DNA from: an uncultured Saprospiraceae bacterium
GTDB lineage: Bacteria > Bacteroidota > Bacteroidia > Chitinophagales > Saprospiraceae
Reading direction: 5' to 3'
Length of the DNA stretch: 43,266 nt
NCBI GenBank assembly: GCA_937921595.1
Contig: CAKZTD010000082.1
Location: 1-43,266, forward strand
A model generated the notes under the pieces. It saw nothing but the letters and a program-made list of their open reading frames with translations, was not told the DNA's origin and ran no database searches. Position numbers and translations under genes: made by a program. This document shows positions 8,403 through 37,280 of this stretch, piece after piece. Within the stretch, counting starts at the first letter, position 1, and every line of letters begins with the position of its first letter.

Positions 8403-8426
8403 GGTTTTGAAGGCTAAAATAGTCAA

Positions 8427-8774
8427 GCCATTTCTACGTAAACTGAGTTATAAATGTTTCATGTCGTAAATAATCGAAATAGCTTTGTGGTTTATAAGTT
8501 AATCACAAATAAATAACCAATCATCTTAAATGGATGGTCATAAAACTTCTAGCTTTGTAAGTGGAAATAATGATTTGAGTAAGTATAAATATAGTAAGTT
8601 ATTGGACTAAATTAAGTTAAATCATTTTTTTTTAAGATATCTCAAATTTTTCAACACAATCTCCTTACAGCGAATTGTTTATGAAAATTTCAGAATATCA
8701 AAACGATTTAACTTAATTCTTAACGTCTACTTACTTAATATAAAATTAAGTAATTCACGGAATTAAATATTAAG
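8427..8774. other. Intergenic region with AT-rich inverted repeats
   Basis: No gene was found. ATTAAGTTAAATC (8611-8623) is the exact complement of GATTTAACTTAAT (8705-8717). A perfect 9-bp hairpin, TTACTTAAT/ATTAAGTAA (8731-8753, 5-nt loop), lies about 20 bp downstream of the T9SS protein stop and may form its transcript end, though no T-run follows. The HTCS promoter must lie in the left part; none was confidently identified. Confidence 0.45.
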
Positions 8775-19422: not shown

Positions 19423-21297
19423 CTAGTTATTACTGGTTGTACTAAATAAGTTTTCCATCGCTTTCATTCGGGTATTGAGGGTCTGAATTTCAGTTTGAAG
19501 CATGGAATCTTTTTTTGCGGAGAATGACTTTAATTGAGCATTTTCTTTTTCAAGTCTTTCTAATTTATCACTAAGTTCTTGAACTGCTGAAACACAAAGC
19601 GTAAAAATCTGATCATAATCTACGGTATGAAAGTCATTTACTTCCGTTCCAAAAAAGAATACCTCTTTGTTTATTTGCATGGTAGAATGATCAATTGCGA
19701 AAGTTTGATCGTCGATAATAGCGCTAACGATAATGCTGAATTCGGATTGATCATTTTCACATCTTATTAGATCACCAATTTTCAAACTATGTGCTTTTTC
19801 CATAGTAATTAAAAATTGATCTCCTTTTCTAGAAATAGCTTCTGGGTAAGCAAAAATATTGGGGATGAAATTTTTTGAATAAGAAACGGCTTCAGGAAAA
19901 ACGGTACTGACTTGTTGTGCCATCACCCCTTTTTTCACACTGGTACCATGACGAAAAGCATCTTTATATTTGTAATCAGCGATTTGAATTTTGTTTAAAC
20001 GTGCGAGATCTGATTTTTGGCTACTAGGTGTAATGTCCTTTTTGATTCTTTGATCAGAGTGAATCCAAAAACCTTTCGATCGAATATTATCAGTAGCGGT
20101 GATGTTAAATTTTACATTTGAGTTTATATAATTAGAATGATTACCACCAGCGAGGTATCTTCTGGTATTTCCATTGACATGAATTTGATCCCAACCTGAA
20201 ACATGTAAAGCATCCTGAACTTTCACTGATCCGTTGTTAGTGGTAAGAATAATATCTCCGTTAGAAGATTCATTATTAAGCTTAACATCATTTGAATTAT
20301 CACTTCCAAAACCGAGGAAAGCTTTTCTACCTTGACCGGTTTGAGGATAGAAGCCCAGGTAACTGGTACTTGTTCCTTTTAATTTTAATGCTTCACCATT
20401 CTTGATGATGTTTAATTCTCCTTCGACATTTGCGTCTGAATCTATGTTGGTTGCTCCGGTAGTAGGGTTTAAGTGGATTGAATTTCCTTTGATGTGAGTT
20501 TCGCCAATAGTATTATTTAAAACCAAGTGATTTCCGAAGTTTGGAACAAAACCAAGAGTTCCTTTCCCTGAATTATTTGTTGTTTTGTAAAAGCCAATAT
20601 TGGCATTGTTTGTACCTTCTACTTTGATTTGTTCATTATCTCCGACGACATGCAAATGATTTTGTGGATCGTCGGTACCGATTCCTACATTGCCATCAGT
20701 ATTGATGCGCATTGTTTCTCCATTATTATCATCTTCAAAAATGTAGGCATCGCTGGTTTTAAATTTTAAACCAGCACTCGCAGAAGTAATGACTGCATCA
20801 GGAGCGCCATCTTCAGCATTCAGCCCTAGTATCCCTGTTCCATTTTGGACGGTTAACTTATGTAATGGATCGGATGCACCAACACCTACGTTGCCGGAAT
20901 TTGGAAATACATTGTCACTACCAATCAAGGCTAAAGCATAAGGAGAAGAAGTCAAACTCGCTCTGGGGATCATTTCCGTTCCTCCTCCAATAGCAACTCC
21001 TAGATAATAAGGTTGATCAAAAGGTGCATCAAGCACTTTATCGCCATCTCCCAAAACAACGCTATAAATACCACCTTCGAGACGAATACTGTCTCTGGTT
21101 TCGTTCCAAATAAGATTCCCTCCGGTCGCTTCATCCCAAAGTTTGAAAACGATTCTGTAATGTCCATTTTCCACGGCCGTGCCATTGGAATTTCGAAGAA
21201 CGCCTTGAACGCTCAGTTTAGAAGTCTGAGCATAAAGATTTCCTGCCAGCATTGACAGTAATAATAAACCAATTGTTAAAAGTTGTTTTTTCATCAT
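19423..21297 (-). CDS. Tail-fiber-like secreted protein with S74 self-cleaving chaperone domain
   Basis: The 624-residue product has a signal peptide ending LYAQ (residue 24). A conserved N-terminal domain at about 25-120 (LSVQGVLRNSNGT, GGIYSVVLGDG, PRASLTSSPYAL) is followed by phage-tail-fibre-like repeats of the GNVGIGTDDPQNHLHVVGD type. The peptidase S74 intramolecular chaperone domain starts near 410 with H-SDQRIKKDI (S414-D415). In this family the domain trimerises the stalk and cleaves itself off at the Ser-Asp. KGVMAQQVSTVFPEA follows, then an inserted beta domain and a C-terminal coiled coil (about 585-615). In Bacteroidota such proteins are chromosomal and secreted; this one is not phage-linked. 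It lies between an HTCS (upstream) and the LamG giant, and has two full paralogues at 33.6-37.3 kb. Confidence 0.9.
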   Translation of the reverse strand: MMKKQLLTIGLLLLSMLAGNLYAQTSKLSVQGVLRNSNGTAVENGHYRIVFKLWDEATGGNLIWNETRDSIRLEGGIYSVVLGDGDKVLDAPFDQPYYLGVAIGGGTEMIPRASLTSSPYALALIGSDNVFPNSGNVGVGASDPLHKLTVQNGTGILGLNAEDGAPDAVITSASAGLKFKTSDAYIFEDDNNGETMRINTDGNVGIGTDDPQNHLHVVGDNEQIKVEGTNNANIGFYKTTNNSGKGTLGFVPNFGNHLVLNNTIGETHIKGNSIHLNPTTGATNIDSDANVEGELNIIKNGEALKLKGTSTSYLGFYPQTGQGRKAFLGFGSDNSNDVKLNNESSNGDIILTTNNGSVKVQDALHVSGWDQIHVNGNTRRYLAGGNHSNYINSNVKFNITATDNIRSKGFWIHSDQRIKKDITPSSQKSDLARLNKIQIADYKYKDAFRHGTSVKKGVMAQQVSTVFPEAVSYSKNFIPNIFAYPEAISRKGDQFLITMEKAHSLKIGDLIRCENDQSEFSIIVSAIIDDQTFAIDHSTMQINKEVFFFGTEVNDFHTVDYDQIFTLCVSAVQELSDKLERLEKENAQLKSFSAKKDSMLQTEIQTLNTRMKAMENLFSTTSNN

Positions 21298-21558: not shown

Positions 21559-24500
21559 TTAATTAATTAACTCTGTTGGGGTTATTCCGTATTCTTTTTT
21601 AAAGCATTTGTAAAAATAGCTAGGACTACTAAAGCCTACCTGATAGGCAATTTCAGATGGATTCCCTTCAAAGTTTTGGAGTAATACTCTGGCCTTTTCT
21701 AAACGATATCGGCGAATAAAAATAGCGGGCGTTTCTCCAGTTAGTGCTTTTAGCTTTCGAAACAATTGGCTTCTGCTTAACCTCAGTATAAGCGCTAATT
21801 CCTCCACACCAAAATTTGAATTAGTAATATTGTCATCAATAATTTCAATGACTTTTGAGACAAAAGGACTTTGAGGAGGATTGAAACTTGAGTTGTTTAC
21901 TTGATCTTCATTTGTAAATTTATATTTCTTTTGAATGTTTTGAATCAGTTCTAATTTATTTTTAAGGTGAAGTGATAACTCTTTTTGATCATAAGGTTTG
22001 GTTAAGTAACTATCCGCACCGACAACTAAGCCTTCTAGTTTTTCTTCATGAGTTGCTTTTGCTGTTAATAAAATAATTGGAATGTGATCGGTTAATTCCT
22101 GTGTTTTTAAATCCTTACAAACTTCATAGCCGTCTTTACCTGGCATCATTACATCGCAGATAATTATATCAGGAATATGCTCAATTGCTAAATTAATTCC
22201 CTGGATTCCATTTTGGGCTATTAGTAAATTATATTCTTTTTGAAATAGTTTTTGTTGATGGTATAAAAGATCTTCATGGTCTTCAATAATCAAAAGAATA
22301 GGCTTTTCTTCTGTGCTTAATTCCTGATCATTTAGTGAATTACTTTGTTGTATTTCATTCTCTAATTTGAGCCGTTTTTGAGTTGAAATTATTTGATTTG
22401 GAACAATCATTTCTTCTGGCCTTAAATGTTGATGATCGATAGGAAGGCTTATTCGAAAGCAAGTTCCTTGTCCTGGTTCACTATCCACATCAATAGCCCC
22501 GTGATGCAGCAAGAGCATCTCTTTGACCATTGCCAGGCCTAAGCCTGTTCCCTCAAAAGCATAGGAATCTTTTCGTTTAACTTGATAGAACCGATTAAAA
22601 ATAAATGCTTGATCTTTTTTTGGAATACCAATTCCCGTATCATTTATACTGACAAAAACCTCTTGTTTCCTCTGTTCTAAATCGACCAAGATATTTCCAT
22701 TTGGTGGTGTAAACTTGATCGCATTTGACAAGAGATTATAAAGGATTTTATCCATTTTTTCACGATCAAAATATAATTCTAGCTGATCGGTATTAGCATC
22801 AAAATCTAATTCAATTTTCTTTTGCCGAGCTAATGGACCAAAAGAGTCTACTAAATCCCGGAGGTAACTAAAGAAGTCTTGTTTGCTTGCAGCTAAACTT
22901 AATCTTCCTGATTCTAATTTGGAAAGATCCAATAATTGTTCAATTAACCGATGTAGTCGGTTGGCATTACGCTGGATAATATGGATGTCTCTTTCATAAA
23001 AATGCCTAAGCCCTGGCTGCTCCAACTCCTTGGCGATTTTGACCGCATTTTCTTCACTCAGACTATTCATAATTAATGTGAGAGGCGTTCTAAGTTCATG
23101 AGAGATATTGGCTAAAAATCTGGATTTTGCATTATCTAATTCTAGTAATTCTTCTTTTTGAAGCTGTATGATTTCTGTACGTTCTGCTACGGTATATTCC
23201 AGTTCTTTTTGCCTTTTTTTCAATCGCTTAGTTTTCATTTTTTGATAAAAATAAACCATCACACAAAAGCCTATAAAAAGACAAGACATAAACCAATTTT
23301 TCAGATAAAAGGGCTTGAATACATGAATTGGGATGGTCAATTTTTTGCTGGAGTATTGTCCATTTGCTGTTTTTCCTTTGATCACTAATTGATGTTCACC
23401 ATAAGGAAGGAAATCAATATTTATTGAAGTTTCTTTTGTGACATTCCAACCTTTTTCGCCTTTTATATCCTCGGGATTTATTGCATAAGCGTATTGAATC
23501 TCCTTTGGGTTTGCATAATCTAAGAGTGCAAATTCAACTTCAAGATATTTATCTCCAGGATGCATGGTGATTTGTCCAAGCTCCTTAAAAGTGGATAACT
23601 GATCCTCTTTCCCATTTGTTGTTTCAGAAAAAAACTGACAAGCCGTAAGAGCCATTTTGATTTCCGGATGTTCGTTAAAAGATTTATAAAAATCTTTTGG
23701 ATGGAAATAAGTAACACCATTTAATCCTCCAAAGTAAATAGTTCCGTCGGCTATTTGGTGATGCGAAATCCGGTTAAATTCTCGATGAGTAATTCCATCT
23801 GGTGGTAGGAACGTTTTTACTCGATGACTTGATCTTTCAAATTGGATAATGCCATTATCAGAACTAATCCAAAGGAATCCATAATCATCTTCATAGACGG
23901 CATATAATTGATTATTTAAAAATCCATCCCCATCATTAAATAATTGAGTTTGCCCCTTTTTTTCATCCCAACGGATTAATCCGGCTTTCGTTGCAATCCA
24001 AAAAATACCGTCCTTATCCTGATACATATGTCTGAAGTCAGTAGCAGGAAGGAATTGTTCTCCTTCCGCCTTCTGCCAATACCTCCCGACAATCCCTTGT
24101 TCTAAATCTAATTGAAACAAGCCGCCGGAAGTCGTCAACCAAATCCGATTTTTTTGATCTTTAAAGAACGAATAGGTTAATATACTTTCTTTTTCGAAAT
24201 CCGCAAATCCATTAAACTTCTTGAATATTTTGATTTGATCAGATCCTTCATCTAAATACTGTAAACCAAATTTGGCAGCAATCCAAAGTCGTTGATTGCT
24301 ATCTTGGAATAAGGACCAAGCGCCATTCACATGCTCCAACTGATCAAGCTTAAATGTTTTTGAAGCTTTGGTTTGCAAATCAAGTTTACCAATTGTGTTA
24401 CCAGTTCCAAACCATAATTTATTTTTTTCATCATATAGCAATGCTCTTGCCACTCCTAAATCCATTGCTACTGAATTTTGTATTATAGGTTTTGATTGAT

Positions 24501-25647
24501 GAAGTTGATAGATGCTACTAGAGGAGACATAAATGTTGCCTTCATTGTCTGAAGTTATTCCTCTACAAGAATTAAATTCTTTTTGTGAAAAAACTGAAGG
24601 GCTTTTGTAAAGTGCCTGTTGAAACCGAGAAGCTTTTAGGTTTATTTTAAAGAGTCCATCTATTGATCCCACCCATAAAAAATCACCGCTGGCATACAGG
24701 TTATAAAAAGTAGAGACATCTAGTTTTTTATTTTCAATGAGTTTTTTAAAACTATTTTTTTTATTTTCAAAACAGGTAAAAACACTAGAATTGCTGATTA
24801 TCCAATATTGGTCACGGCTAAATGCAATAGCACTCCTCTGTGAATGACTATGCGTTAGATTGTTTTGAGAAAATCCTTTAATAGATTCTTTCGAAATCTC
24901 TCCATTGGGATATATATAATTTATGAAGGCCCCAGAACCTACAATAAGTTTGTTATCGTCAGAAACACCAAATCCGAAGGTCCAAAAATCAGGGAATGAT
25001 TTTAAATGCTTAAGCGGTTTATCTTTCTCGACATAGTATATTTCGGTCAATTTCGGATCACTACTATTTTGAACAGGTAATCCCTTTTTTGCTATCAACC
25101 AAAAATTATTATCATTGACAGAAGCAACACATCTAAAGCGACTAAGTTCCGTTTCAATTCTTCTTAATTCTTTTTTTTGAGTAAGATCATAAAAAATGAG
25201 ACTGCCTGTTTTTAAGCCAATCAATAAGGTTTCGTCTTTCAATAAAAGGCCATCAATAATCTCACTGGGGTCAAATGAAACTTCGCTTCCGAACTTCTCT
25301 TCTAAGGATTTAATTTTCTCAGAATGAATATTAAAAAGTATCGGCTTTTGATGGCCTTTACCGGATATTATCCAAAGGTCTCCATCTCTGTCTTCAAAAA
25401 CCTTTACTTCGATTACATTATAGAAATCGCATTTTTCTACTAATTTAAACTCCGATCCATCAAAGCGATTAATCCCGTTGATGGCTCCAATCCACATTAC
25501 ACCTCTACTGTCCTGAAACACCCAGTTTATTTGATGATGTGACAAACCATCCTCTAAGGTATATTTTGTAACTCGATTGACTTGAGCCTGAGCAAAGGAA
25601 AAGCCAGTGCAGAAAAGTACAAGCAAAAGGACTATTCGTCGATTCAT
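21559..25647 (-). CDS. Hybrid two-component system (HTCS) upstream of an S74 gene
   Basis: The 1362-residue product has a signal peptide (MNRRIVLLLVLFCTGFSFAQ). Periplasmic propeller repeats run to about 650 (DSRGVMWIGAINGINRFDG, DKDGIFWIATKAGLIRW, DDYGFLWISSDNGI). A Y_Y_Y domain spans about 700-775 and a membrane helix about 783-801. The kinase has H850 in SHELRTP and complete N, G1 and G2 boxes (NLLSNAIKF, DTGIGI, GTGLGL). The receiver, about 1115-1235, has D1165 in CDVMMPG. The AraC-type DNA-binding domain is about 1260-1362 (LSRSQLFRKLKALTG, IAYQVGFSSPSYFYKCFKKEYG). It is closely related to the 1299-residue HTCS at 37.8-41.7 kb, which also sits just upstream of S74 genes. It is separated from the peptide genes upstream by a strong terminator, so it has its own transcript. 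The ligand is unknown. Confidence 0.95.
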   Translation of the reverse strand: MNRRIVLLLVLFCTGFSFAQAQVNRVTKYTLEDGLSHHQINWVFQDSRGVMWIGAINGINRFDGSEFKLVEKCDFYNVIEVKVFEDRDGDLWIISGKGHQKPILFNIHSEKIKSLEEKFGSEVSFDPSEIIDGLLLKDETLLIGLKTGSLIFYDLTQKKELRRIETELSRFRCVASVNDNNFWLIAKKGLPVQNSSDPKLTEIYYVEKDKPLKHLKSFPDFWTFGFGVSDDNKLIVGSGAFINYIYPNGEISKESIKGFSQNNLTHSHSQRSAIAFSRDQYWIISNSSVFTCFENKKNSFKKLIENKKLDVSTFYNLYASGDFLWVGSIDGLFKINLKASRFQQALYKSPSVFSQKEFNSCRGITSDNEGNIYVSSSSIYQLHQSKPIIQNSVAMDLGVARALLYDEKNKLWFGTGNTIGKLDLQTKASKTFKLDQLEHVNGAWSLFQDSNQRLWIAAKFGLQYLDEGSDQIKIFKKFNGFADFEKESILTYSFFKDQKNRIWLTTSGGLFQLDLEQGIVGRYWQKAEGEQFLPATDFRHMYQDKDGIFWIATKAGLIRWDEKKGQTQLFNDGDGFLNNQLYAVYEDDYGFLWISSDNGIIQFERSSHRVKTFLPPDGITHREFNRISHHQIADGTIYFGGLNGVTYFHPKDFYKSFNEHPEIKMALTACQFFSETTNGKEDQLSTFKELGQITMHPGDKYLEVEFALLDYANPKEIQYAYAINPEDIKGEKGWNVTKETSINIDFLPYGEHQLVIKGKTANGQYSSKKLTIPIHVFKPFYLKNWFMSCLFIGFCVMVYFYQKMKTKRLKKRQKELEYTVAERTEIIQLQKEELLELDNAKSRFLANISHELRTPLTLIMNSLSEENAVKIAKELEQPGLRHFYERDIHIIQRNANRLHRLIEQLLDLSKLESGRLSLAASKQDFFSYLRDLVDSFGPLARQKKIELDFDANTDQLELYFDREKMDKILYNLLSNAIKFTPPNGNILVDLEQRKQEVFVSINDTGIGIPKKDQAFIFNRFYQVKRKDSYAFEGTGLGLAMVKEMLLLHHGAIDVDSEPGQGTCFRISLPIDHQHLRPEEMIVPNQIISTQKRLKLENEIQQSNSLNDQELSTEEKPILLIIEDHEDLLYHQQKLFQKEYNLLIAQNGIQGINLAIEHIPDIIICDVMMPGKDGYEVCKDLKTQELTDHIPIILLTAKATHEEKLEGLVVGADSYLTKPYDQKELSLHLKNKLELIQNIQKKYKFTNEDQVNNSSFNPPQSPFVSKVIEIIDDNITNSNFGVEELALILRLSRSQLFRKLKALTGETPAIFIRRYRLEKARVLLQNFEGNPSEIAYQVGFSSPSYFYKCFKKEYGITPTELIN

Positions 25648-25830: not shown

Positions 25831-25880
25831 TTCAAAACTTAAAAAGCCCCAGCAGAACTGGGGCCTTTTTAAGTTTTGAA
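25831..25880 (-). terminator. Very strong intrinsic terminator after the peptide operon
   Basis: A 50-bp palindrome: the arm 25831-25852 (ending AAAAAGCCCCAG) pairs with 25858-25880 (starting CTGGGGCC), with one bulged C and a 5-nt loop. The GC core is flanked by A and T runs on both sides, so it can act in both directions. It lies about 50 bp after the last peptide stop codon and before the HTCS gene, isolating the short, probably highly expressed peptide mRNA. Confidence 0.9.
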
Positions 25881-25928: not shown

Positions 25929-26063
25929 TTAAAATGCTTCAATGTATGGTGGTGGATCACCTGTTCCTCCTTTTACACTCTTCAATACGGAAGTACTTAG
26001 GATTTCTGATTTGTTACTTGATAATTGGTCTAGGTTATTTTTGATCTCTTTTAAATTTTTCAT
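25929..26063 (-). CDS. Double-glycine-leader secreted peptide precursor 1
   Basis: A 44-residue gene too short for normal gene calling, and third in transcript order. The leader starts MKNLKEIKNN and ends ILSTSVLKSVKGG, matching the LSxxELxxVxGG export signal known from class II bacteriocins and competence pheromones, except that position -8 is Val. C39-type peptidase/ABC exporters cut such leaders after GG. The predicted core is TGDPPPYIEAF (11 residues), which lacks Cys and has one Thr. Its paralogues lie 49 and 229 bp upstream with near-identical leaders and cores, and even the AAAAAATAATAAG-type 5' flank is conserved. It is likely a secreted signal peptide; a RiPP precursor or bacteriocin is also possible. 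No exporter or modifying enzyme is in the window. Confidence 0.85.
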   Translation of the reverse strand: MKNLKEIKNNLDQLSSNKSEILSTSVLKSVKGGTGDPPPYIEAF

Positions 26064-26112
26064 CTTATTATTTTTTTTAGTTTGTTAATTAATTTTTGAT
26101 TTCCGTTAATTC

Positions 26113-26244
26113 TTAGTCAATGTATGGTGGTGGATCGCCTTTGTAACCACCTTTTAAACTCTTTAATTCTGAATCTCTTAGGATTTCTGATGTTTTACTT
26201 GATACTTGACGTAGTTGATTTTTGATCTCTTTTAAATTTTTCAT
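26113..26244 (-). CDS. Double-glycine-leader secreted peptide precursor 2
   Basis: A 43-residue gene in the middle of the trio. It starts MKNLKEIKNQLRQ, identical to copy 1 through the ninth residue. The leader ends ILRDSELKSLKGG (L at -12, E at -8, L at -7, L at -4, GG). The core YKGDPPPYID is 10 residues, with no Ser, Thr or Cys, so lanthionine or disulfide chemistry is excluded here. The spacers to the neighbouring copies are 48 and 49 bp and share an AACAAACTAAAAAA-like 5' flank. Conservation of the reading frame, the GG motif and the DPPPYI core among the three copies is the main evidence that they are real genes. Confidence 0.85.
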   Translation of the reverse strand: MKNLKEIKNQLRQVSSKTSEILRDSELKSLKGGYKGDPPPYID

Positions 26245-26292
26245 CTTATTTATTTTTTAGTTTGTTAGTTAATTTTTGGTCTCCTTAAAATC

Positions 26293-26427
26293 TTATGCTT
26301 CAATGTATGGTGGTGGATCTCCTTTATACCCTCCTTTTACACTCTTTAATTCTGTTCCGCTTAAGATTTCTGATTGTTTGTTTGATAATAAGTGTAGGTG
26401 CTTTTTGATGTCGTTTAAATTTTTCAT
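26293..26427 (-). CDS. Double-glycine-leader secreted peptide precursor 3 (first in operon)
   Basis: A 44-residue gene and the promoter-proximal copy. It starts MKNLNDIKKHLHL. The leader ends ILSGTELKSVKGG, a perfect match to LSxxELxxVxGG. The core is YKGDPPPYIEA (11 residues). Its 5' flank differs from that of copies 1 and 2, as expected if it carries the operon's own leader. The roughly 307-bp non-coding region upstream contains 21-bp-spaced GTTACAA repeats and separates it from the TPR kinase gene on the same strand. Probable function: a secreted signalling peptide sensed by the adjacent TPR kinases (inference). Confidence 0.85.
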   Translation of the reverse strand: MKNLNDIKKHLHLLSNKQSEILSGTELKSVKGGYKGDPPPYIEA

Positions 26428-26540
26428 GTTATAGTATTTTAAAGGTTTAAAAGAATATGTTATAAAGTATTGAATGTTGTGTTTGTCGTTGTTGTTGATA
26501 CAAATATGGGGGTATGTGGAGCATTTTTCCCTTTGGCCTG

Positions 26541-26568
26541 GTTACAAAAGTCTCCAATCTTGTTACAA
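26541..26568. promoter_or_regulatory. Direct repeat pair GTTACAA x2, 21-bp spacing (proximal)
   Basis: GTTACAA at 26541-26547 and again at 26562-26568, exactly 21 bp apart start to start (read TTGTAAC toward the peptides). Direct half-sites two helical turns apart are the known geometry of AraC-family operators. It lies about 115-140 bp upstream of the first peptide start. It is a candidate binding site for the AraC domains of the neighbouring kinases. Confidence 0.5.
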
Positions 26569-26652: not shown

Positions 26653-26680
26653 GTTACCCCAATCTAAGGCCTCGTTACAA
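26653..26680. promoter_or_regulatory. Direct repeat pair GTTACCC/GTTACAA, 21-bp spacing (distal)
   Basis: GTTACCC at 26653-26659 and GTTACAA at 26674-26680, again exactly 21 bp apart. The pair lies 112 bp upstream of the proximal pair in the same orientation. AATCT also occurs between the half-sites in both pairs. The repeated geometry within one short spacer makes a regulatory role more likely than chance. Confidence 0.45.
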
Positions 26681-26734: not shown

Positions 26735-29413
26735 TTAAGTGCTTCGTTCAGCAGAAGGGCTGGTCTTAAAATGCTTTTTATAGGCTGTACTAAAATTATT
26801 TGGATCAGAATATCCAACAGAGTAGGCAATTTCGGCAATAGTTTGATCGGTACTTTGAAGTAAGAACCTTGATTTCTCAAATCGAGCTTCTTTTAAAAGT
26901 AAACTCGGGCTCTTTCCAGTAGTATTTTTTAATTTTCTAAATAGCTGAATCCGACTTATCATCAGTATTTCAGCCATTTTCTCTACTGTGAAATACTCGT
27001 CAGACAGGTTCTCCTGAATAATTTGCTGTATTTGCTCTGTAAAAGAAAGGGGTTTATCAACTGATAGGTTTGGCTGTTCCTCCGTTTGAGCCCACCGGAT
27101 TTTGATTTTTTCCTCTTGAAGGAGAATATTTTTGATTTGAAACAGTAGCGCATCTAGTTTAAAAGGCTTTTCCATTCTTGCAATCGCCCCTGCATCAAAT
27201 ACCTCCTGGAGGTGACCTGCATTAGAAAGCCCAGTCAAAATCATCACCGGAATGTGATTGGTCAAGGTATTTTGGTTTATCTGCTTACAAAGCCAAGCTC
27301 CTGTATGATCCGGTAAATTCCAATCGCTAAGAATCAAATCCGGTATATGTTGCTCTGCGAGCGCAAAACCCTCTTCCGTATTTTGAGCGATCAATATTTC
27401 GTATTTTTTGGAAAGCTCTGATTTTAGAAAATTCAATAAATCCGCTTCATCTTCGACCAAAAGGAGAATTGGTTTATCCGATGTAGGTTGTTGGATTTTC
27501 GAAATAGCGACTCTTGATTTGATCTTTTGGGTAGGTATCTCAACATAAAAGGAGGTTCCTTTTCCTAAGCTCGACTCAAAGGAAATCTTGCCTTTCATTA
27601 ATTCCACCATTTCTTTTACTGTAGCAAGACCAATCCCCGTACCTCCTTTGATTTGTCCTTGTTCTCCTTGAAAATGTTGATCGAATAATTTTGTTTGATC
27701 ATCCCTTGAAATTCCTGGGCCATTATCTTGGATTGTAAATTTCAGATCAGATCCATTATTGATTTCGTCTACTAAGAATTCAACTTTCTGAAGTGGCTCA
27801 CAAAATTTCACTGCATTGCTGAGCAGATTGGATATAATGCGATTCACTTTTTCAAAATCCATTTCATAGTTCGTCTTTTCGATATTCAGGATTGATTCGA
27901 AAACCAAACCTTTGTCTTCAGCTTGCGCCGCAAAACGCTGGGTGATGTTATTTAGTTTTTCGAATAGCAGGCCTTTTTCTAGATTAATCTTAAGCACTCT
28001 TGTTTCAAGATTATTCCAATCTTGAATCTGATCAATCAACTCCATTAGTCGCTGGCCATTTCGTTGTGCTAATTGAATGTCACCTATCGCTTCCTTATCT
28101 CCAATCGATTTAACGGCTCTTTCCATTGGGGCTATCATCATGTCCAAAGGTTTTTTTATTTCCGCAGAGATGGAAGAAAATAGTCGCCTGCGATCAACAT
28201 TAATTGCCTCATCCCGTTTTTTAAGCAATGCTAATTCTTGTCTTTTGCTCTTATTTTTTACAAACATAAAAAGCAAGAGACCAATCGGAAAACTACCAAT
28301 TCCAATGAGGTAAGCAATTTGTTTTATGTAACTGGCTTGACGTAATTCTTTTTCTTTCTTTGCGATATTGATTTGCTTGATTTTCTGACTGGTTTCAAAA
28401 GCATCTTTTTGTTCTTTAACTATTTGTGTCGTTTCTCTACTCCCTTCGTCCAGAATCACCGTCCTTAAAAGGCTAATCTGTTTTCTGGAATCTTTCAATC
28501 TCCCCATTTTGCTGAGGACTCTTGCATACGTTTTGTGATACGACTCTCGCAATAAATAGATATTAAACTTTTTTAATTCTTTATCTATTTTCAATAATAA
28601 AATTTCTGCTTTTTCAAATTGATTGTTGAGATAAAGATAGGAAGCTTGGCCTAAGTGAATCTTTAGATCAAGCAAAGAGTCTCTAGAAACGGGAGAAGCC
28701 AATAATAATAAATAATCTTCTTCTGTTACTTCTTGAAGACGGAGGTTGTTTTTGACAGAAAGTTCTAAAAAATCTATTTCTAATTGTTCTAATTCTGACA
28801 AATCCCATTGGCTTTCTTTTATTTTTTTGATAAAACTTTGAGCGTTTGAATATTTTTCGGAAGCAAGAAACATTTCTAACCCTTCTTTATAAAGTCGAAA
28901 ATTTAATTTGCCATCTTCGATTCCTGCATTGATATTTAAAGCTTGTTCAAAGTATACACTTGCACTGTCTGTTTTTTCATACTTTAAAAATTCATGCCCT
29001 CCTTTAGCAATTAGCCAGCTTTTTAGCAGCTCTTTTTTTAATAAAGTTTCTGGAGTATTTTTCTCAATTAATATTTTTGCTTTATTAAGTACATCGTTTG
29101 ATCTGTTACGCGAACCAATTAGAAAATATTTTTCCTGGAGATTCAAATGTAAATCCATACACCATCTTATCGCATCGTCTTTTGACAAAACCTCTTGTGC
29201 CGTGGCACATGCTTCGTCAAGGTTTATCCTCCACAATTTAGGTTCTTTATAAAAATAAGGGGCATACCATTCTTCCCATACTTGTAGCTTTTCTTTTCCT
29301 TTTGTTTGTTCTAATTTGGTTTTTAATTGTGTAGGGATATTTCCATTGGCCATAGAAAAGACAGGCCATAAAATAGCGAAAAGAAGGAGGAATATTTTGA
29401 ATGGTCTATTCAT
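26735..29413 (-). CDS. TPR-sensor hybrid histidine kinase with AraC output, acceptor His replaced by Ala
   Basis: 892 residues. Signal peptide 1-22; periplasmic helical repeat region about 25-320 resembling TPRs; coiled coil; membrane helix 364-386; DHp-like helix; ATPase domain with intact N529/N533 (ISNLLSNAVKF), DNGPGI (D563) and GGTGIGL; receiver 648-762 with D697 in SDWNLPD, T and K in place; AraC helix-turn-helix about 790-890. The H-box reads SISAEIKKP where SHELRTP is expected, so residue 417 is Ala (codon GCG at 28163-28165). His to GCG needs three base changes, so a sequencing error is unlikely. The protein cannot be a normal autokinase on itself but may bind ATP and phosphorylate a partner. 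The partner is probably the paralogue just upstream, whose ATP site is degenerate. The peptide operon follows downstream on the same strand. Confidence 0.92.
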   Translation of the reverse strand: MNRPFKIFLLLFAILWPVFSMANGNIPTQLKTKLEQTKGKEKLQVWEEWYAPYFYKEPKLWRINLDEACATAQEVLSKDDAIRWCMDLHLNLQEKYFLIGSRNRSNDVLNKAKILIEKNTPETLLKKELLKSWLIAKGGHEFLKYEKTDSASVYFEQALNINAGIEDGKLNFRLYKEGLEMFLASEKYSNAQSFIKKIKESQWDLSELEQLEIDFLELSVKNNLRLQEVTEEDYLLLLASPVSRDSLLDLKIHLGQASYLYLNNQFEKAEILLLKIDKELKKFNIYLLRESYHKTYARVLSKMGRLKDSRKQISLLRTVILDEGSRETTQIVKEQKDAFETSQKIKQINIAKKEKELRQASYIKQIAYLIGIGSFPIGLLLFMFVKNKSKRQELALLKKRDEAINVDRRRLFSSISAEIKKPLDMMIAPMERAVKSIGDKEAIGDIQLAQRNGQRLMELIDQIQDWNNLETRVLKINLEKGLLFEKLNNITQRFAAQAEDKGLVFESILNIEKTNYEMDFEKVNRIISNLLSNAVKFCEPLQKVEFLVDEINNGSDLKFTIQDNGPGISRDDQTKLFDQHFQGEQGQIKGGTGIGLATVKEMVELMKGKISFESSLGKGTSFYVEIPTQKIKSRVAISKIQQPTSDKPILLLVEDEADLLNFLKSELSKKYEILIAQNTEEGFALAEQHIPDLILSDWNLPDHTGAWLCKQINQNTLTNHIPVMILTGLSNAGHLQEVFDAGAIARMEKPFKLDALLFQIKNILLQEEKIKIRWAQTEEQPNLSVDKPLSFTEQIQQIIQENLSDEYFTVEKMAEILMISRIQLFRKLKNTTGKSPSLLLKEARFEKSRFLLQSTDQTIAEIAYSVGYSDPNNFSTAYKKHFKTSPSAERST

Positions 29414-29633: not shown

Positions 29634-32366
29634 TTATTTCTTTTCTTCGGATGGGTTGATTCCGAATTCTTTTTTATAAACGGAACTAAAATAATTGGGG
29701 CTGGAAAAACCTACTGCAGAGGCAATTTCCGCAATTGTCATTTCGGTATTTTTTAAATAGTCTTTTGATTTTTCTAACCTAAAATCTTTAATCAAATTAC
29801 TAGGTGTTTTATCCAATATTTTTTTTGTCTTTCGATATAATTGAGTGCGGTTGATAGAAAGTTCTTCTGCCAGTTGATCAACAGAAAATTTTTCATCTTT
29901 ATAGTTTTTATTTAAATTTTCAAAAACCTTTTTAATAAAGGGATCCATTTCTTCTTCGACTCCTTGAGTTTCAGTTTTCGTTTCTAAGTGTTTAGTTATT
30001 TTGACTGTCTTCCAATAGCTCCGAGATCTTTCCTGTTGTTCTAAAATGGTTTCTAATTGGCGTGATAAGTTTTTTATTTGAAAAGGTTTACTCATCCAAG
30101 CGATTGCTCCAGTTTCAAAAGCCATTCGTTTATTTTCATCATTATCATTAGCGGTCAGCACCATTATTGGAGTATGTGTAAGTAAATCATTGCTTTTTAT
30201 TTTTTGGATTAGCCAATCACCATTATTATCTGGGAGATTCCAATCGGTAATGATAATATCCGGTAATTCACGTTCTGCGACGATAAAGCCATTGGTTGCT
30301 GAACTAGCCTTTTCAACATTAAATTTATTACTTAATGCTGATGCTAAAAACCGAAGTAGATCCGGCTCGTCTTCAATAATCAACAAAGTAGGAAGGTCAT
30401 CAGATTTCAGTTGAGTTGTACTATTCGTCTTTGTATTTCTATCTGCAACAAATTCTATGGGGATAAAAATTTCAAAAGTATTTTTTTGGTTAGTATCCGT
30501 ATAAAACTTTAAATCTCCATCCATTAAATCAGTCATATCTCTGACGATTGTAAGTCCAAGTCCGAGTCCTTCTTCTGATGGCGTATTTTCTCTTTTAAAA
30601 AATCGATCAACAATATCTGTTTCTTTAAATTGAGCAGGAATTATTCCAGTATCAGATATAATTAATTTTAAGTTTTTCCGATCTATGATTTGAGCTTCGG
30701 CGTAAATTTTATTTCCTGATTTACAATATTTTAAACTGTGGTCAAAAGTGTAGCTTATTATTTTTTCAAGTTTATCAAAATCGAGTCTAAATTGTGCTTT
30801 GTCGATATTGATATCTTTTTTAAAATCTACTTCTTTCTCAATCGCTTCTTGCTCTAAATTTTGCAACCACGCATTTAAGGAAATATCCAAATCTCCTATT
30901 TGAGGATTTAATTGTAGAACATTCGTTTCTACTTTATTCCAATCCAAAATCTGAGTAAATATTTTCATTAATTGAGTCCCACTTTTCTGTGCCAACTTAA
31001 GGTCAGCAATAATTTTGGGGTCTTGCGTTTTTCCTTCTGCTCGATCAAGCGGTGCAAGCATCAAAGCTAAAGGTGTTCGAATATCATGAGTGATGGAAGA
31101 AAATAATCGATCTCGATTACTTGTAATCGCTTGTCCGGATTCAAGTTCCAGTGACAGTTGTTTTTGTTTACTTCTATTTTTATACAAAAAGAATAAAAGG
31201 GTGGTAATACCCAGAACTAATAAAGCTCCAATTACTGCAATTTTACTTATAAAAGATGCTTGATTGACTGCTGCTGCTAATTGTAATTCTTCTAGTTCTG
31301 CTTGTTTTATATCCCGATCATGCTTAGTATGCCACATGAGCAATTCTTCATCACCTAAGCCTACATTGTCTTCCCGAATGAGGTCTTTATATTCTTTGTG
31401 CAAAAAAATAGATTCCTCAATATCTCCGGTCATAGCCAATACATAAGTATATTCTTCGAGAAAGTACATTCGGGTAAAGGGATCTGATCCTGAAGGAATT
31501 CTAGGTTTTATTTCATTGGAAATATTAATGGCTTTTTCAAACTGTCCAGCTTTACTCAAAAGATCAGCATAATCTGCTTTATAGGTAAGCTCCCAATCCT
31601 CAGGAAATGATGCTAAACTATCAAGATAAAGTTCAAAAGTTTTTTGTGCATCCTCATACAATTCCAGGTCATCTTGCATCAATGCTTTTCCCCAATAAAA
31701 ATGAATCCTTGACTTAAGGTTAACATTCCCCATTTTATTAAGATAAAATTCCGCTTTCTCATAAGCATGAAGTGCCTGTTGGTTTAAGATCGTATCTTCA
31801 TCTCCTGCTAATATATCACCATAAGAAATATAGGCGTTAAATGCCAAATTATATAGGTTGTTTTCCTCCGCTTCATCGCAAGCTTTTTTATAATATTCCA
31901 AAGCCATTTCTTTTTGCCCCATATACTTCAGTTTCAAAGCATAAACACCGGCCCATCTAATCTCCGGTCCTACAACATATTGGGGGCCTAGTTTTTTAAG
32001 TTCAACTAACAAGCCTTTTATATCTTCGAACACTTCATTATTTTCTTTAAAATAGACCACATTATTTATCGAATAGGCAATTGAATAGAGGATATCAAAA
32101 TGAAAAAGAAGAGTCGAATCCGCGGGATAAAATTTTGATACGTCATCCACAGCAATCGGGATAGTATTTATTCGTTCTTCTGGATTATCACTCCCCGAAA
32201 GATTATTAAACCAACGATGCCAAACGCTAAGCCGTTGACGCCCTTCTAAGGTATCTAATTGTGCTGCAAGCTCCTCAGGGATTTGATTAAATGACCACGC
32301 GGCTGTCGAGCTTGTGCAACAGCAGATTAGAGATAAAAATATGATCTTAATAAAAGAGGAGGTCAT
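29634..32366 (-). CDS. TPR-sensor hybrid histidine kinase with AraC output, degenerate ATP-binding site
   Basis: The open frame begins at 32444 (936 codons). The ATG at 32366 (codon 27) gives a proper signal peptide, MTSSFIKIIFLSLICCC, so 910 residues are likely. Full-frame numbering: periplasmic TPR-like helices about 55-375 (ALEYYKKACDEA, AQKTFELYLDSL); membrane helix 401-421; H-box THDIRTP with H453 (codon CAT); ATPase domain where NLLSNA is replaced by YTFDHS (565-570) and DxGxG by DTGII (598-602), while GLGLGL remains; receiver about 686-800 with D734 in TDWNLPD; AraC domain about 840-930. Both Mg/ATP-binding Asn positions are lost, so self-phosphorylation is doubtful. It is a paralogue of the downstream 892-residue kinase (shared N-terminal L.VW..W motif and SDWNLPD-type receiver) and divergent from the 317-residue T9SS gene. 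Confidence 0.92.
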   Translation of the reverse strand: MTSSFIKIIFLSLICCCTSSTAAWSFNQIPEELAAQLDTLEGRQRLSVWHRWFNNLSGSDNPEERINTIPIAVDDVSKFYPADSTLLFHFDILYSIAYSINNVVYFKENNEVFEDIKGLLVELKKLGPQYVVGPEIRWAGVYALKLKYMGQKEMALEYYKKACDEAEENNLYNLAFNAYISYGDILAGDEDTILNQQALHAYEKAEFYLNKMGNVNLKSRIHFYWGKALMQDDLELYEDAQKTFELYLDSLASFPEDWELTYKADYADLLSKAGQFEKAINISNEIKPRIPSGSDPFTRMYFLEEYTYVLAMTGDIEESIFLHKEYKDLIREDNVGLGDEELLMWHTKHDRDIKQAELEELQLAAAVNQASFISKIAVIGALLVLGITTLLFFLYKNRSKQKQLSLELESGQAITSNRDRLFSSITHDIRTPLALMLAPLDRAEGKTQDPKIIADLKLAQKSGTQLMKIFTQILDWNKVETNVLQLNPQIGDLDISLNAWLQNLEQEAIEKEVDFKKDINIDKAQFRLDFDKLEKIISYTFDHSLKYCKSGNKIYAEAQIIDRKNLKLIISDTGIIPAQFKETDIVDRFFKRENTPSEEGLGLGLTIVRDMTDLMDGDLKFYTDTNQKNTFEIFIPIEFVADRNTKTNSTTQLKSDDLPTLLIIEDEPDLLRFLASALSNKFNVEKASSATNGFIVAERELPDIIITDWNLPDNNGDWLIQKIKSNDLLTHTPIMVLTANDNDENKRMAFETGAIAWMSKPFQIKNLSRQLETILEQQERSRSYWKTVKITKHLETKTETQGVEEEMDPFIKKVFENLNKNYKDEKFSVDQLAEELSINRTQLYRKTKKILDKTPSNLIKDFRLEKSKDYLKNTEMTIAEIASAVGFSSPNYFSSVYKKEFGINPSEEKK

Positions 32367-32528
32367 TATAAAATGTTGGTCCCTCCAAAGATAAATTTTA
32401 AGCTTGAAAAAAAGAATTAATAGTAAAAGAGGAACTTCGCACATAATACCTTGTTTTACTTGCAGCGTTTTGTCCCTTGAAAGGATTTAACAATAGATAA
32501 CCCTTTTTTATAAAAAAAATTAAAAGTT

Positions 32529-33578: not shown

Positions 33579-35477
33579 CTAGTTACTTCCGGTCGAACTA
33601 AACATTGACTCTATCGATTCCAATCTAGCATTCATTGATCTTACTTCTGCTTTTAACGCATCATTACTTTTCTTAGAATCAGCATTAGTAGATTTCAATC
33701 GAGCATTTTCTTTTTCAAGTGCTTCGACTTTGCGAGCGAGCTCTTGAGTAGCGGAGACGTTGAGAGTAAAAATCCTATCGTAATCTACTGTGTGAAAATC
33801 ATCGATTTCTTTTCCGACGATAAAAAGCTCTTTTTCATTATCACTTCCTTCCCAGTTATCAATACTAAATTCTTGAGGAGAAATGATACTAGAAACGAGC
33901 ACTTCCTGACTTCCATTAAGTGTACCTACCTTAATTTTATCTCCGACTTCAAAGTCATGATTTTTACTTAGCCGAACCTTAAGGTTTCCATTTTCCAAAC
34001 TAAGCGCAGTTGGAGCTTCATAAACATTAGGAATAAAGTCAGGCCCCTTAGAGATAGCTTCTGGAAATACAGCGTCCACTTGCTGAGCAATGACTCCTTT
34101 TCTCATTGCTGCACCATTGGCTACTTCATCTATATGGCGATAGTCTGTCACTTCAATTTTTGATAAGGTCAATAAATCTTTCTGACCATTACTCAAGCTT
34201 AAATCTTTTTTGATTCTTTTATCTGAAGATATTACGAAGTGATCAGCACGGACTCCGTTATCGGCATAAATGGAAAGATGATAATGTCGAGCATTTTGTC
34301 TAATAGCATAAGAAGAACTAGTATAATGTTCCAAAATATGATTATTCTGACTAGTATAATGGTATTCATTACTACTTGCATGAAGCATCCCAATGGTTCT
34401 AACTCTTTTTCCAGCACCAGGACTAATTACGATATTTGAATTAGTTGAATTAACCAAAAGCTCACCATTTGACGCTACACCAACATCCGCTGTTTTGCCT
34501 CCTGCAATCCCCGTAGGATAGAAAGCCAATTGGGTATTATTCGTTGTACCAGCCAACTTAAGGGCTTCGCCTTCTTTTGTCACTTCAACAGTTCCATTAA
34601 TCACGGTATTTCCTTCAATAGTAGCGGTACCACTTGAAGTATTCAAGGTGATGTTACTTCCTTCAATCTTCGTCGCACCTAGTGGATTCGACAATTTCAA
34701 ATCATCTCCACCAGCCGCATCAAAACCCAAAGTGGCACTTCCTGAAGTTTTCGTAAAAACGATATTCGCATTATCTGTTCCTTCCACTTTGACTTGTTCG
34801 TTGTCGCCTACGATGTGTAAGGTATTTTGAGGATCATCTGTACCGATACCGACCTTGCCATCTTTTTTGATGCGCATGACCTCGGTCACTTCACCTGCGA
34901 AATAATAAGCATTGCTTGCCCCTTCTGTGGAGAATTCTAAGCCATCTGCTTTGGAGGTAATGATCGCTGTATTATTTGCATCCTCGACGGCTTCTAAGCC
35001 TAAAAATCCGTCACCTCTTTGTACGGTTAATTTATTTTGTGGATCAGCAGCTCCAACGCCAACATTACCAGAGTTGGGAAAAATATTATCATCGCCAATG
35101 AGCGAAAGTGCATAAGGCGAAGAAGTTAGCCGAGCTCTTGGCGTCAACTCTATTCCAATTGCGGGATCGCCTACCGTGACCCCTAAATAATAAGGTTCGT
35201 CAAAAGCTGCGGTTAAAGGGGTACCTCCTGCACCTAAAATAACGCTGTAAACGCCACCATTGACGGGTACATTATCCATGATCTCTTCCCATATTGGTTC
35301 ACCAGTATTAGCTTGTAGGTATAATTTAAAAGTAATTTGATAGCTACCATCCTCAACCGCTGTTCCATCAGCGGCTCGGAGTATTCCCTGAATACTCAGG
35401 TTGGAGGTTTGAGCTTGTAATTCTGCTGTAAAAAATACAGCTCCCAATAATGCAATGATTGTTAATATCTTTGACAT
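33579..35477 (-). CDS. Tail-fiber-like secreted protein with S74 self-cleaving chaperone domain
   Basis: The 632-residue product has a signal peptide ending LQAQ (residue 23). The shared N-terminal domain spans about 24-125 (LSIQGILRAADGT, GGVYSVILGAGG, PRARLTSSPYAL). Fibre repeats (GKVGIGTDDPQNTLHIVGD) follow. The S74 domain opens with SSDKRIKKDL (cleavage expected between S418 and D419) and KGVIAQQVDAVFPEA, with an inserted beta domain. A C-terminal coiled coil ends SSTGSN. It is the second gene of a pair, 54 bp after the 582-residue paralogue with no terminator between, so they form an operon. The DNA for the last coil and preceding strand is almost identical to that of the neighbour, suggesting recent duplication or gene conversion. 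Confidence 0.9.
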   Translation of the reverse strand: MSKILTIIALLGAVFFTAELQAQTSNLSIQGILRAADGTAVEDGSYQITFKLYLQANTGEPIWEEIMDNVPVNGGVYSVILGAGGTPLTAAFDEPYYLGVTVGDPAIGIELTPRARLTSSPYALSLIGDDNIFPNSGNVGVGAADPQNKLTVQRGDGFLGLEAVEDANNTAIITSKADGLEFSTEGASNAYYFAGEVTEVMRIKKDGKVGIGTDDPQNTLHIVGDNEQVKVEGTDNANIVFTKTSGSATLGFDAAGGDDLKLSNPLGATKIEGSNITLNTSSGTATIEGNTVINGTVEVTKEGEALKLAGTTNNTQLAFYPTGIAGGKTADVGVASNGELLVNSTNSNIVISPGAGKRVRTIGMLHASSNEYHYTSQNNHILEHYTSSSYAIRQNARHYHLSIYADNGVRADHFVISSDKRIKKDLSLSNGQKDLLTLSKIEVTDYRHIDEVANGAAMRKGVIAQQVDAVFPEAISKGPDFIPNVYEAPTALSLENGNLKVRLSKNHDFEVGDKIKVGTLNGSQEVLVSSIISPQEFSIDNWEGSDNEKELFIVGKEIDDFHTVDYDRIFTLNVSATQELARKVEALEKENARLKSTNADSKKSNDALKAEVRSMNARLESIESMFSSTGSN

Positions 35478-35531: not shown

Positions 35532-37280
35532 TTAGTTATGTCCAGTCATTTCGAGATTTTGCGAAATGGTTTCGAACTTTGCGCTGAGTGATTTTAAAAG
35601 ATCTTCACTCTTGGTGACCTTTGACTTTAGTTCAGCATTTTCTTTTTCCAGAGCTTCGACTTTGCGAGCGAGTTCTTGAGTAGCAGAGACGTTGAGTGTG
35701 AAGACTCGGTCGTAATCGACGGTGTGGAAATCATCTACTTCCTTTCCGTAAACGAATACGTCCTTTTTTATTTTTATATTTTTTGGAGAAACGGTAAAAG
35801 AAAAATCATTTTCCACTTGAAGTACAAGCATGTCTTCCTCTCCTTCTGGAATCACAATTTTTACATTATCATTTACTTTCAAGCCATGCGCTTTTTCCAA
35901 AGTAACTTTGACCATTTTATCTGTCGCATTTACCTGAGTAGCAAAAGCATAAATATTTGGAATATGCTCAGTTCTTAAAGTAACTGCTTCAGGAAATACT
36001 GCTTTTACTTGCTGTGCAATCAATCCTTTTTTAGAAGCATCACCATTATTAAGAAAATCAACGTGCCGATAATCTGTAACTTCGATTTGATTTAAAGTAT
36101 TCAAATCTTTTTGATGATTGGACAGGTTTAAATCCGTTTTTATTCGTTGGTCAGAATTTGCCCAAAAGGCATAAGCAAGTACATGATCATTTACTACAAG
36201 TCCAAAATTCCAGCTATGATTTCCAGTTCCAATTGAAAGCCAATTACCACTATGATTAGTTTGACGTGAATAACCTTGAGTCCATGACTTCCCAATAATA
36301 CTATTGCCTCCAACTTCCATTGCATTTGGGACAACTAAGTGTCCTCCTTTGGTGTCGATGACCATATTACCGCCATTCGTCGTAATACCAAATTGCTCTG
36401 GATTATCTGGGTCATTAAATCCAACTTTAGCATTCATAGTAGCACTCGTACCTTGTGGGTAAAAAGAAATAAAGCTAGAATCTGTTCCGATGAGCTTTAG
36501 GGCTTCCCCATTTTTATTGATTTCGACAGGGTTTGTCATGGGAGTCAAAGTAATTCCTCCTACTGGATTCGACAACTGTAAATCACCTCCATTCGCCGCA
36601 TCAAAACCTAAACTTGCACTACCAGTTGAATTGGTCAATACAAGATTTGCATCCGTGGTTCCTTCAATCGTCAATAACTCATGAGCTGTGGCTTGAATTT
36701 TACCATTTGAAAAAGCATAGGTCTTATCCGTTCCACCTGCATCGAAAGACATTCCGTCAGCAGTTGTGGTAATGGTAGCAGTATTGTTAGCATCTTCGAT
36801 AGCTTTCAATCCTAGAATTCCGTCGCCTTCTTGAACTGTCAACTTATGCTCGGGAACAGAAGCACCGACACCAACATTTCCAGAGTTTGGGAAAATATTA
36901 TCATCACCAATCAGAGAAAGCGCATAAGGCGAAGAAGTCAATCGAGCTCTGGGATATAAATCTATATCTCCATCTACTGATACGCCCAGATAGTATGGGA
37001 CATTGAAAGGAACATCTAAAGGTGTGCTACCTGCTCCTAAAATTACACTATAGATTCCCCCGTTAATTCTTACATCTTCTATGGTTTCTTCCCAGAGTAC
37101 CGTACCGGCAACTTCGACATCATATAGTTTGAAGGTCAAGTCATATTCGCCATTTTCTACGGCATTGCCTTCGATGGTTTTGACGATACCTTGAATACTA
37201 AGATTGGAAGTTTGGGCATTGCTTGTTAATGCTATGAATAGCATCATTCCCGTGATCATTGTTACCAGTTGGTTCTTCAT
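35532..37280 (-). CDS. Tail-fiber-like secreted protein with S74 self-cleaving chaperone domain
   Basis: The 582-residue product has a signal peptide ending SNAQ (residue 23). The N-terminal domain, about 24-125, is the one found in the other S74 proteins here. A shorter fibre region follows. The S74 chaperone opens with NSDQRIKTDL (S376-D377) and KGLIAQQVKAVFPEA; the C-terminal coiled coil ends LEMTGHN. In this family the chaperone folds trimeric stalks and then cuts itself off. It is the first gene of a two-gene S74 operon. Its upstream region has a GGGGTATGT box (37351-37359) and GTTACAA (37366-37372), both also found in front of the peptide operon. A 54-codon remnant closest to this C-terminus lies at 41938-42102. 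Confidence 0.9.
   Translation of the reverse strand: MKNQLVTMITGMMLFIALTSNAQTSNLSIQGIVKTIEGNAVENGEYDLTFKLYDVEVAGTVLWEETIEDVRINGGIYSVILGAGSTPLDVPFNVPYYLGVSVDGDIDLYPRARLTSSPYALSLIGDDNIFPNSGNVGVGASVPEHKLTVQEGDGILGLKAIEDANNTATITTTADGMSFDAGGTDKTYAFSNGKIQATAHELLTIEGTTDANLVLTNSTGSASLGFDAANGGDLQLSNPVGGITLTPMTNPVEINKNGEALKLIGTDSSFISFYPQGTSATMNAKVGFNDPDNPEQFGITTNGGNMVIDTKGGHLVVPNAMEVGGNSIIGKSWTQGYSRQTNHSGNWLSIGTGNHSWNFGLVVNDHVLAYAFWANSDQRIKTDLNLSNHQKDLNTLNQIEVTDYRHVDFLNNGDASKKGLIAQQVKAVFPEAVTLRTEHIPNIYAFATQVNATDKMVKVTLEKAHGLKVNDNVKIVIPEGEEDMLVLQVENDFSFTVSPKNIKIKKDVFVYGKEVDDFHTVDYDRVFTLNVSATQELARKVEALEKENAELKSKVTKSEDLLKSLSAKFETISQNLEMTGHN

Follow-up and report, generated by a model that had tools for sequence, protein, structure and literature searches.

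The double-glycine pheromone circuits of Gram-positive bacteria, such as ComC-ComDE and BlpC-BlpHR, place a GG precursor beside a membrane histidine kinase, a likeness that the locus described here shares together with its putative autoregulation. However, in circuits of this type the kinase is HPK10-type and the LytTR regulator is a protein of its own, whereas the present locus belongs to a Gram-negative host and its kinase is a TPR-sensor hybrid that carries a receiver and an AraC domain in the same chain. The RRNPP receptors (Rap, PlcR, PrgX) also use a TPR-like solenoid as the sensor, and Rap-Phr is among the best structural matches of the sensor model of kinase B reported below, but these receptors work in the cytosol and depend on import of the peptide, whereas the TPR part of our kinases lies at the N-terminus, before a membrane segment recognized by eye. 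The HTCS proteins of Bacteroidota, typically linked to sugar-use genes, have the same single-chain layout of sensor, kinase, receiver, and AraC domain. The kinases described here differ from them by a TPR-like sensor in place of the Reg_prop beta-propeller found in a neighbouring gene (21559-25647), and by their linkage to peptides. Finally, the Bacteroidota GG-leader RiPP precursors of TIGR04149/PF14406 (rSAM-modified, grasp-with-spasm) likewise have an MK-rich leader ending in GG, whereas the peptides in question have a PPP core, score below the curated cut-off, and have no recognizable rSAM or ATP-grasp gene nearby.

To our knowledge, no peptide autoinducer has been established in Bacteroidota. 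In the open-access papers searched, we found no description of a PPP peptide family or of a comparable peptide-kinase circuit in this phylum. The accessible part of a mining study of Bacteroidales RiPPs (PMC10352776) notes that some of its candidate clusters have kinases and TPR proteins close by, and proposes a signalling role; neither this part nor that of a graspetide survey (PMC8939145) describes a PPP family.

Peptide genes and their family

The window, the whole stretch of 43,266 nucleotides analysed from an uncultured Saprospiraceae bacterium, contains three tandem frames of 43-44 residues, which the first-pass annotation had located without giving a strand. All three are there, on the minus strand, so transcription proceeds from 26427 to 25929. 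Peptide gene 1 (26293-26427, minus strand; 44 aa) encodes MKNLNDIKKHLHLLSNKQSEILSGTELKSVKGG followed by the core YKGDPPPYIEA, its leader ending in ELKSVKGG; gene 2 (26113-26244, minus strand; 43 aa) encodes MKNLKEIKNQLRQVSSKTSEILRDSELKSLKGG followed by YKGDPPPYID, and gene 3 (25929-26063, minus strand; 44 aa) encodes MKNLKEIKNNLDQLSSNKSEILSTSVLKSVKGG followed by TGDPPPYIEAF. The intergenic gaps are 48-49 bp. Measured against copy 3, copy 2 has 74% and copy 1 has 70% identity; 25 columns of the peptide alignment are invariant, and the aligned DNA of the three copies including flanks has 82% mean column identity. A terminator-like stem-loop (25846-25864) occupies part of the 282 bp that separate gene 3 from the following gene (start at 25647); the search found one such structure against 0.7 expected in shuffles, which is weak taken alone. 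A sigma-70 promoter scan was uninformative (seven found, 4.3 expected).

The leader consensus for C39 peptidases is a GG preceded by hydrophobic residues at -4, -7, and -12. All three window leaders have V or L at -4, L at -7, L at -12, and GG at -2/-1, and two of the three have Glu at -8. The leaders thus appear to fit the C39 double-glycine pattern, in agreement with the first-pass annotation.

The window peptides are part of an apparently undescribed Saprospiraceae family. A strict leader-and-core expression, which misses members with other starts such as L218 9419-9556, retrieved 51 ORFs (49 distinct) in 28 of 62 examined stretches, from 17 genomes, so that the predicted conservation of frame and core in relatives was found. 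Because leader and core recur in these 51 ORFs and the prolines show synonymous codon variation (first-proline codon CCA in 26, CCT in 20, and CCG in three of the 49 distinct peptides), the three-frame pattern is beyond chance. Peptide gene 1 matched at E 1.5e-29 a profile built from the three window peptides themselves. Profile matches at E<=0.01 occurred in 26 of 299 genomes of the same family, covering 16 of 112 genera, although several of the weakest among these 26 genomes, for example G188, have leader-only look-alikes. With the profile extended by relatives, the window's own genome has 15 members: the three in the window (contig C82), 11 on C32, and one on C143.

The core consensus of the family is mostly (D/C/E)PPP(F/W/I/Y), with one to three motif copies per peptide. 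Among the 49 distinct peptides, the residue preceding PPP is D in 24, C in 19, and E in six; the residue following is F in 16, W in 14, I in seven, Y in three, and another in nine, with G next in 32. Two motif copies are found in 15 peptides and three in one. Members occurred in three of 348 genomes of an order sample, all within the same family, and in one of 395 genomes of a phylum sample, namely the own genome. No member was thus seen outside Saprospiraceae in these two samples, in which distant members were perhaps missed because about 20 candidates were scored per genome. A loose DNA pattern retrieved at least 113 stretches from named genomes, most of them apparently chance matches in unrelated taxa, and the in-frame members among the matches listed come from records titled Saprospiraceae or Saprospirales. 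One further in-frame match, an arginine-rich gammaproteobacterial ORF of 74 aa (L145), was discarded as an apparent chance hit.

The view that this core family lacks a described model held for the curated models scanned, none of which reached its cut-off. Pfam matched none of 15 family members, and ten further NCBIfam scans, eight of them with family peptides, gave nothing above cut-off. TIGR04149 matched one of 15 scanned members at E<=0.01. Of the window peptides, copy 2 matched it at E 8e-4 (19.2 bits against a curated cut-off of 25 bits); a second window copy reached 13.6 bits against the same cut-off, and the remaining copy was unmatched. Membership of the window peptides in the rSAM-modified RiPPs of TIGR04149 was therefore rejected on a score under the curated cut-off. 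Scanning of the large ORFs within 5 kb of the window peptides identified three hybrid kinases and the end of a Peptidase_S74 protein; in these and in the other window ORFs, which were read, no radical SAM/SPASM gene was seen beside the precursors, and TIGR04192 and TIGR04193 genes were absent among the scanned neighbours.

Adjacent hybrid kinases

Just upstream of the window peptides lie two tandem genes for kinases of about 900 aa each, kinase B (26735-29413, minus strand) and kinase A (29634-32444, minus strand). Both have an N-terminal TPR-like sensor followed by histidine kinase, receiver, and AraC domains, with HATPase, receiver, and AraC domains identified in each. A sensor-region search of the own genome returned the two window kinases and five kinases on C32 as strong matches, seven in all, and then three weak generic TPR matches at E 3e-8 or worse. 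All seven strong kinases stand in peptide clusters; six of the seven had built the sensor profile. Across the family the subfamily was found in six of 299 genomes from four genera, a small and related sample, and kinase counts are lower bounds because the family-wide search was limited to scoring seven candidates in each genome. Five of these six genomes have strict-core peptides, while the sixth, G188, has leader-like matches only. Over the six genomes, 12 of the 14 kinases are in peptide clusters, ten of them no more than 500 bp from a peptide and two about 3 kb off, behind the partner kinase; for the other two (G098:C50 and G188:C491) no recognizable peptide was found in the neighbourhood. 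As in peptide/two-component quorum sensing, the precursor is therefore linked to a dedicated sensor kinase, and this linkage was seen in three genera (g1, g78, g95).

The 14 kinases are least alike in the sensor, with a mean identity of 21% compared to 47% for the kinase, 51% for the AraC, and 57% for the receiver part. The sensor of kinase B was modelled as a helical TPR-like solenoid (pLDDT 76), whose best PDB matches were LGN at the top, Rap of pLS20 with Phr, MalT, and Rap of phi3T with its pheromone, at E 6e-4 to 9e-4 and a TM of about 0.4-0.5. The two Rap pheromone receptors, 6t46 (E 6.8e-4) and 8rsv (E 9.0e-4), both had a TM of about 0.5. These model-based matches support a TPR fold and would permit peptide binding, nothing beyond, and the Rap match is unspecific since TPR folds take many ligands and LGN was the top match. 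By eye, the N-termini of kinases A and B are signal-sequence-like, and a membrane-helix-like stretch precedes the kinase domain. A cytosolic receptor of the RRNPP kind was accordingly rejected for the window kinases.

The two window kinases have complementary defects. In kinase B, the H-box histidine is replaced (ISAEIKKPL) and the N-box and G1 box are intact, whereas kinase A has the H-box histidine (ITHDIRTPL) together with a degenerate N-box (IISYTFDHSLKY) and G1 box (SDTGIIPA). In Pfam, kinase B matched HisKA at E 0.064 and HATPase at 1.4e-24, compared to 1.2e-5 and 1.3e-10 for kinase A. A tandem pair from a second genus, G098:C188, has the same reciprocal losses, and its kinase A has Glu where the receiver Asp is expected. 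In the tree, the two A kinases group at 97/97 and the two B kinases at 100/100, although the A of G098 sits on a long branch, which makes its position less certain. In the remaining ten kinases of the comparison, the H-box histidine is retained and the N-box and G1 motifs are recognizable. Judged by residues, both pairs show the complementary loss of the histidine and of ATP-binding residues that would be expected of a split kinase. In CheA3/CheA4 of Rhodobacter sphaeroides, as described in the accessible text of PMC6829392 and PMC3591291, the kinase domain is similarly in one partner and the phospho-accepting histidine in the other. The window partners differ from that pair in that each is a complete hybrid kinase of the membrane, and in that their reciprocal losses, as read from the sequences, are losses of residues.

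Other genomes have other neighbours: their peptides adjoin TPR-HisKA kinases of about 670 aa (L061, L065, L206, L234) or a protein termed P166, and several peptide loci of the family have no TPR-HisKA, LytS/LytTR, or P166 neighbour. The single own-genome member on C143 (L019; 9635-9760, with a CPPPL core) lies 1-2.4 kb from LytS/LytTR-like genes at 6094-7257 and 7917-8615, reminiscent of the LytTR regulators of the Gram-positive circuits. Since it follows this pair and lacks the operator described below, it may represent a second regulatory type in the same genome.

The window also encodes three larger hybrid kinases of 1299-1390 aa (4254-8426, 21559-25647, 37752-41651). Reg_prop beta-propeller repeats were found by scanning in the one at 21559-25647, and the other two were assigned by similarity only. 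Three similar-looking proteins of about 580-630 aa (19423-21297, 33579-35477, 35532-37280) include a Peptidase_S74 domain in the first, the others being alike by eye.

Promoter elements and export candidates

A promoter-proximal box of 36 bp, AAGGGAAAAATGCTCCACATACCCCCATATTTGTAT (26498-26533, minus strand), stands about 70 bp before peptide gene 1. With up to three mismatches allowed, a search of the 8.04-Mb genome found four sites, each a perfect match lying ahead of a peptide operon, compared to none with the reversed pattern; the pattern was derived from the same four sites. The locus L069 from another genus retains TTACCCCCATATTTGTATCA of this box. The upstream regions of five own-genome peptide operons on two contigs have 62% mean column identity.

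Upstream of the box in the own genome stand direct repeats, which in the window take the form GTAAC-N16-GTAAC with a 21-bp spacing, at a proximal (26541-26566, minus strand) and a distal (26653-26678, minus strand) operator candidate. The window alone holds these two sites against 0.21 expected, a number reached in three of 100 shuffles. The motif was first defined on the own genome as GTWAC-N16-GWAAC. Inspection of the upstream DNA of relatives then led us to relax its last half-site, GWAAC, to GHAAC, which added L064 and L069. The test set comprised 32 operon-first peptides, 17 of them in kinase-bearing genomes. Three of the latter were set aside, L015:39 and L068:72 for having 38 and 71 nt of upstream DNA and L062:242 for another match (G170:C93:3-107) just before it, leaving 14 testable operons. 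Eleven of the 14 carry the widened motif (five of six in the own genome, six of eight elsewhere) and nine the first motif (four of the eight elsewhere, all of genus g78), whereas none of the 15 operon-first peptides in genomes without the kinase carries either. The operator was missing in L019, L063, and L067, and it was present at the peptide operons L055 and L059 on contigs where no kinase was seen. The widened motif gave 15 matches against 0.08 expected and the first motif 12 against 0.04; with either motif, no alternative gap from 8 to 27 exceeded two matches.

AraC-type activators use direct repeats two helical turns apart. The GTWAC repeats at 21-bp spacing accompany the presence of the kinase and are candidate operators of the AraC type. 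Genome-wide, the operator search gave 19 matches at 17 places, seven of them in peptide promoters, against 29 for the reversed control; a gap of 17, in effect a spacing control, gave six matches against ten in its control. Outside peptide promoters the motif is therefore at chance level, and no further regulon targets can be claimed. A near-identical element, GTTACAAACTT..CATTATTTG(A/T)AAC, occurs at G000:C83:9832, C221:528, and C227:14525 and may be a repeat family that has nothing to do with the peptides.

A C39 exporter, which the first reading of the window had proposed to look for elsewhere in the genome, has candidates: three PF03412 matches in the own genome exceed the cut-off, none of them beside the window's peptides. 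Two of these, on C326 and C29 (L224, L225), are frames of about 730 aa, each followed by a frame of about 430 aa that looks HlyD-like. The frame pairs resemble a pair in G094 (L207) that precedes P166, with E 7e-146 to a peptidase-containing ABC exporter model and 2e-29 to an HlyD model, both below the curated cut-offs.

Readings of the locus

The suggestion of a secreted signal or a novel RiPP stands in part: a secreted-signal role is plausible, but the dedicated TPR hybrid kinases, the AraC-type operator candidates, and the complementary kinases had been overlooked. The kinase link, the shared operator candidates, and the complementary kinases together tilt this choice between signal and novel RiPP in favour of a signalling circuit. 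It is somewhat probable that the peptides are autoinducers that leave the cell through a C39 transporter, whose gene lies elsewhere in the genome, and are perceived by the paired hybrid kinases. In such a circuit, the precursors would be made from one operon, and a C39-ABC exporter with its HlyD-like partner would cut behind the GG and export the core of 10-11 residues. The core would then reach the extracytoplasmic TPR-like sensors of the adjacent kinases A and B. Within the pair, ATP would be bound by the kinase domain of B, and the histidine that accepts the phosphate would come from A. Once phosphorylated, the AraC-type output domain would bind the 21-bp-spaced GTWAC repeats and raise expression of the peptide operon by positive feedback.

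A bolder version, which we advance tentatively and regard as rather doubtful, is that the circuit represents a Gram-negative class of peptide quorum sensing in which, in the window and in the second genus, an obligate heterodimer of half-dead kinases acts as a coincidence detector for self-made peptides. If the heterodimer were obligate, the promoter would fire only with two different, highly divergent sensors both engaged.

The main rival to the autoinducer reading, possible though on the unlikely side, is that the peptides are effectors, either bacteriocin-like or modified RiPPs, and that the kinases control their production upon sensing envelope stress, a competitor, or another cue. Bacteriocins likewise have GG leaders, and the many paralogous precursors per genome, with one to three core motifs each, would suit a secreted product. 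This reading also draws on P166, which stands beside several members of the family and, in relatives, beside grasp-with-spasm maturases or the C39-ABC and HlyD-like pair. P166 is a protein of about 166 aa, predicted to be all-helical, with a WHxF...Y..FC...G motif, and is found mostly beside CPPP-type peptides (L017 9402-9878; L056 5547-6053; L058 7879-8382; L061 10086-10583; L063 9427-9957; L068 1869-2366; L206 7711-8277; L207 6686-7150; L212 3303-3809; L216 5487-5984). It occurs in 22 of 299 genomes, 14 of which are among the 26 peptide genomes, and as a fragment in the own genome (C99:3-437). No family scored above cut-off in Pfam (four proteins) or NCBIfam (two proteins); of five helical models the best had a pLDDT of 86 and the other four 46-70, and no PDB match to the model was better than E 1.8. 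A possible resemblance to GRDP-like proteins found no support in Pfam. In two genomes (L212, L216), P166 adjoins grasp-with-spasm maturases that pass the NCBIfam cut-offs (TIGR04192 with 286 and 254 bits against 230; TIGR04193 with 359 and 324 against 175), and the GG peptides there are without PPP. Some relatives may therefore be RiPP-like, and P166 might serve the GG-leader peptides of Saprospiraceae as an accessory factor; as it is not near the window's peptides, we left it out of the mechanism. Another neighbour, a PF07992 (pyridine-nucleotide-disulphide-oxidoreductase-like) protein, is convergent to the peptide cluster in two genera (L015 648-1583, L068 874-1818). For the window, however, the effector reading has against it that no modifying enzyme or immunity gene was recognized within about 5 kb of the peptides and that the cores of 10-11 aa are nearly invariant. 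Moreover, members of the kinase subfamily seldom occur outside peptide clusters in the sampled genomes, and the sensors are their most divergent part.

It is very unlikely that kinases and peptides are adjacent by common descent of the cluster only, without a functional link. The kinase-bearing genomes come from just four genera, and duplication can take neighbours along, but the linkage holds across the three genera named above and the operators track the presence of the kinase, even at L055 and L059. Most improbable of all, cis-acting arrest or leader peptides, in which the PPP run would stall ribosomes (X-PPP-X runs are EF-P-dependent stalling motifs) and control downstream expression, were set aside for want of a close downstream gene, the next one lying 282 bp off behind the weak stem-loop, and tandem copies, GG leaders, and two or three motifs in 16 of 49 distinct peptides are unexpected for an attenuator.

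Returning to the autoinducer reading, the PPP peptides of Saprospiraceae and the dedicated membrane sensors often encoded next to them look like an undescribed Gram-negative peptide signalling system, and in some species the sensors appear to switch on the peptide genes. The complementary kinase pairs are candidates for naturally occurring split hybrid kinases in the membrane. The cores of 10-11 residues are exact candidate signals, open to synthesis, and with exact candidates for the signals, receptors, operator, and exporters in hand, the question of whether Bacteroidota use peptide pheromones becomes directly testable.
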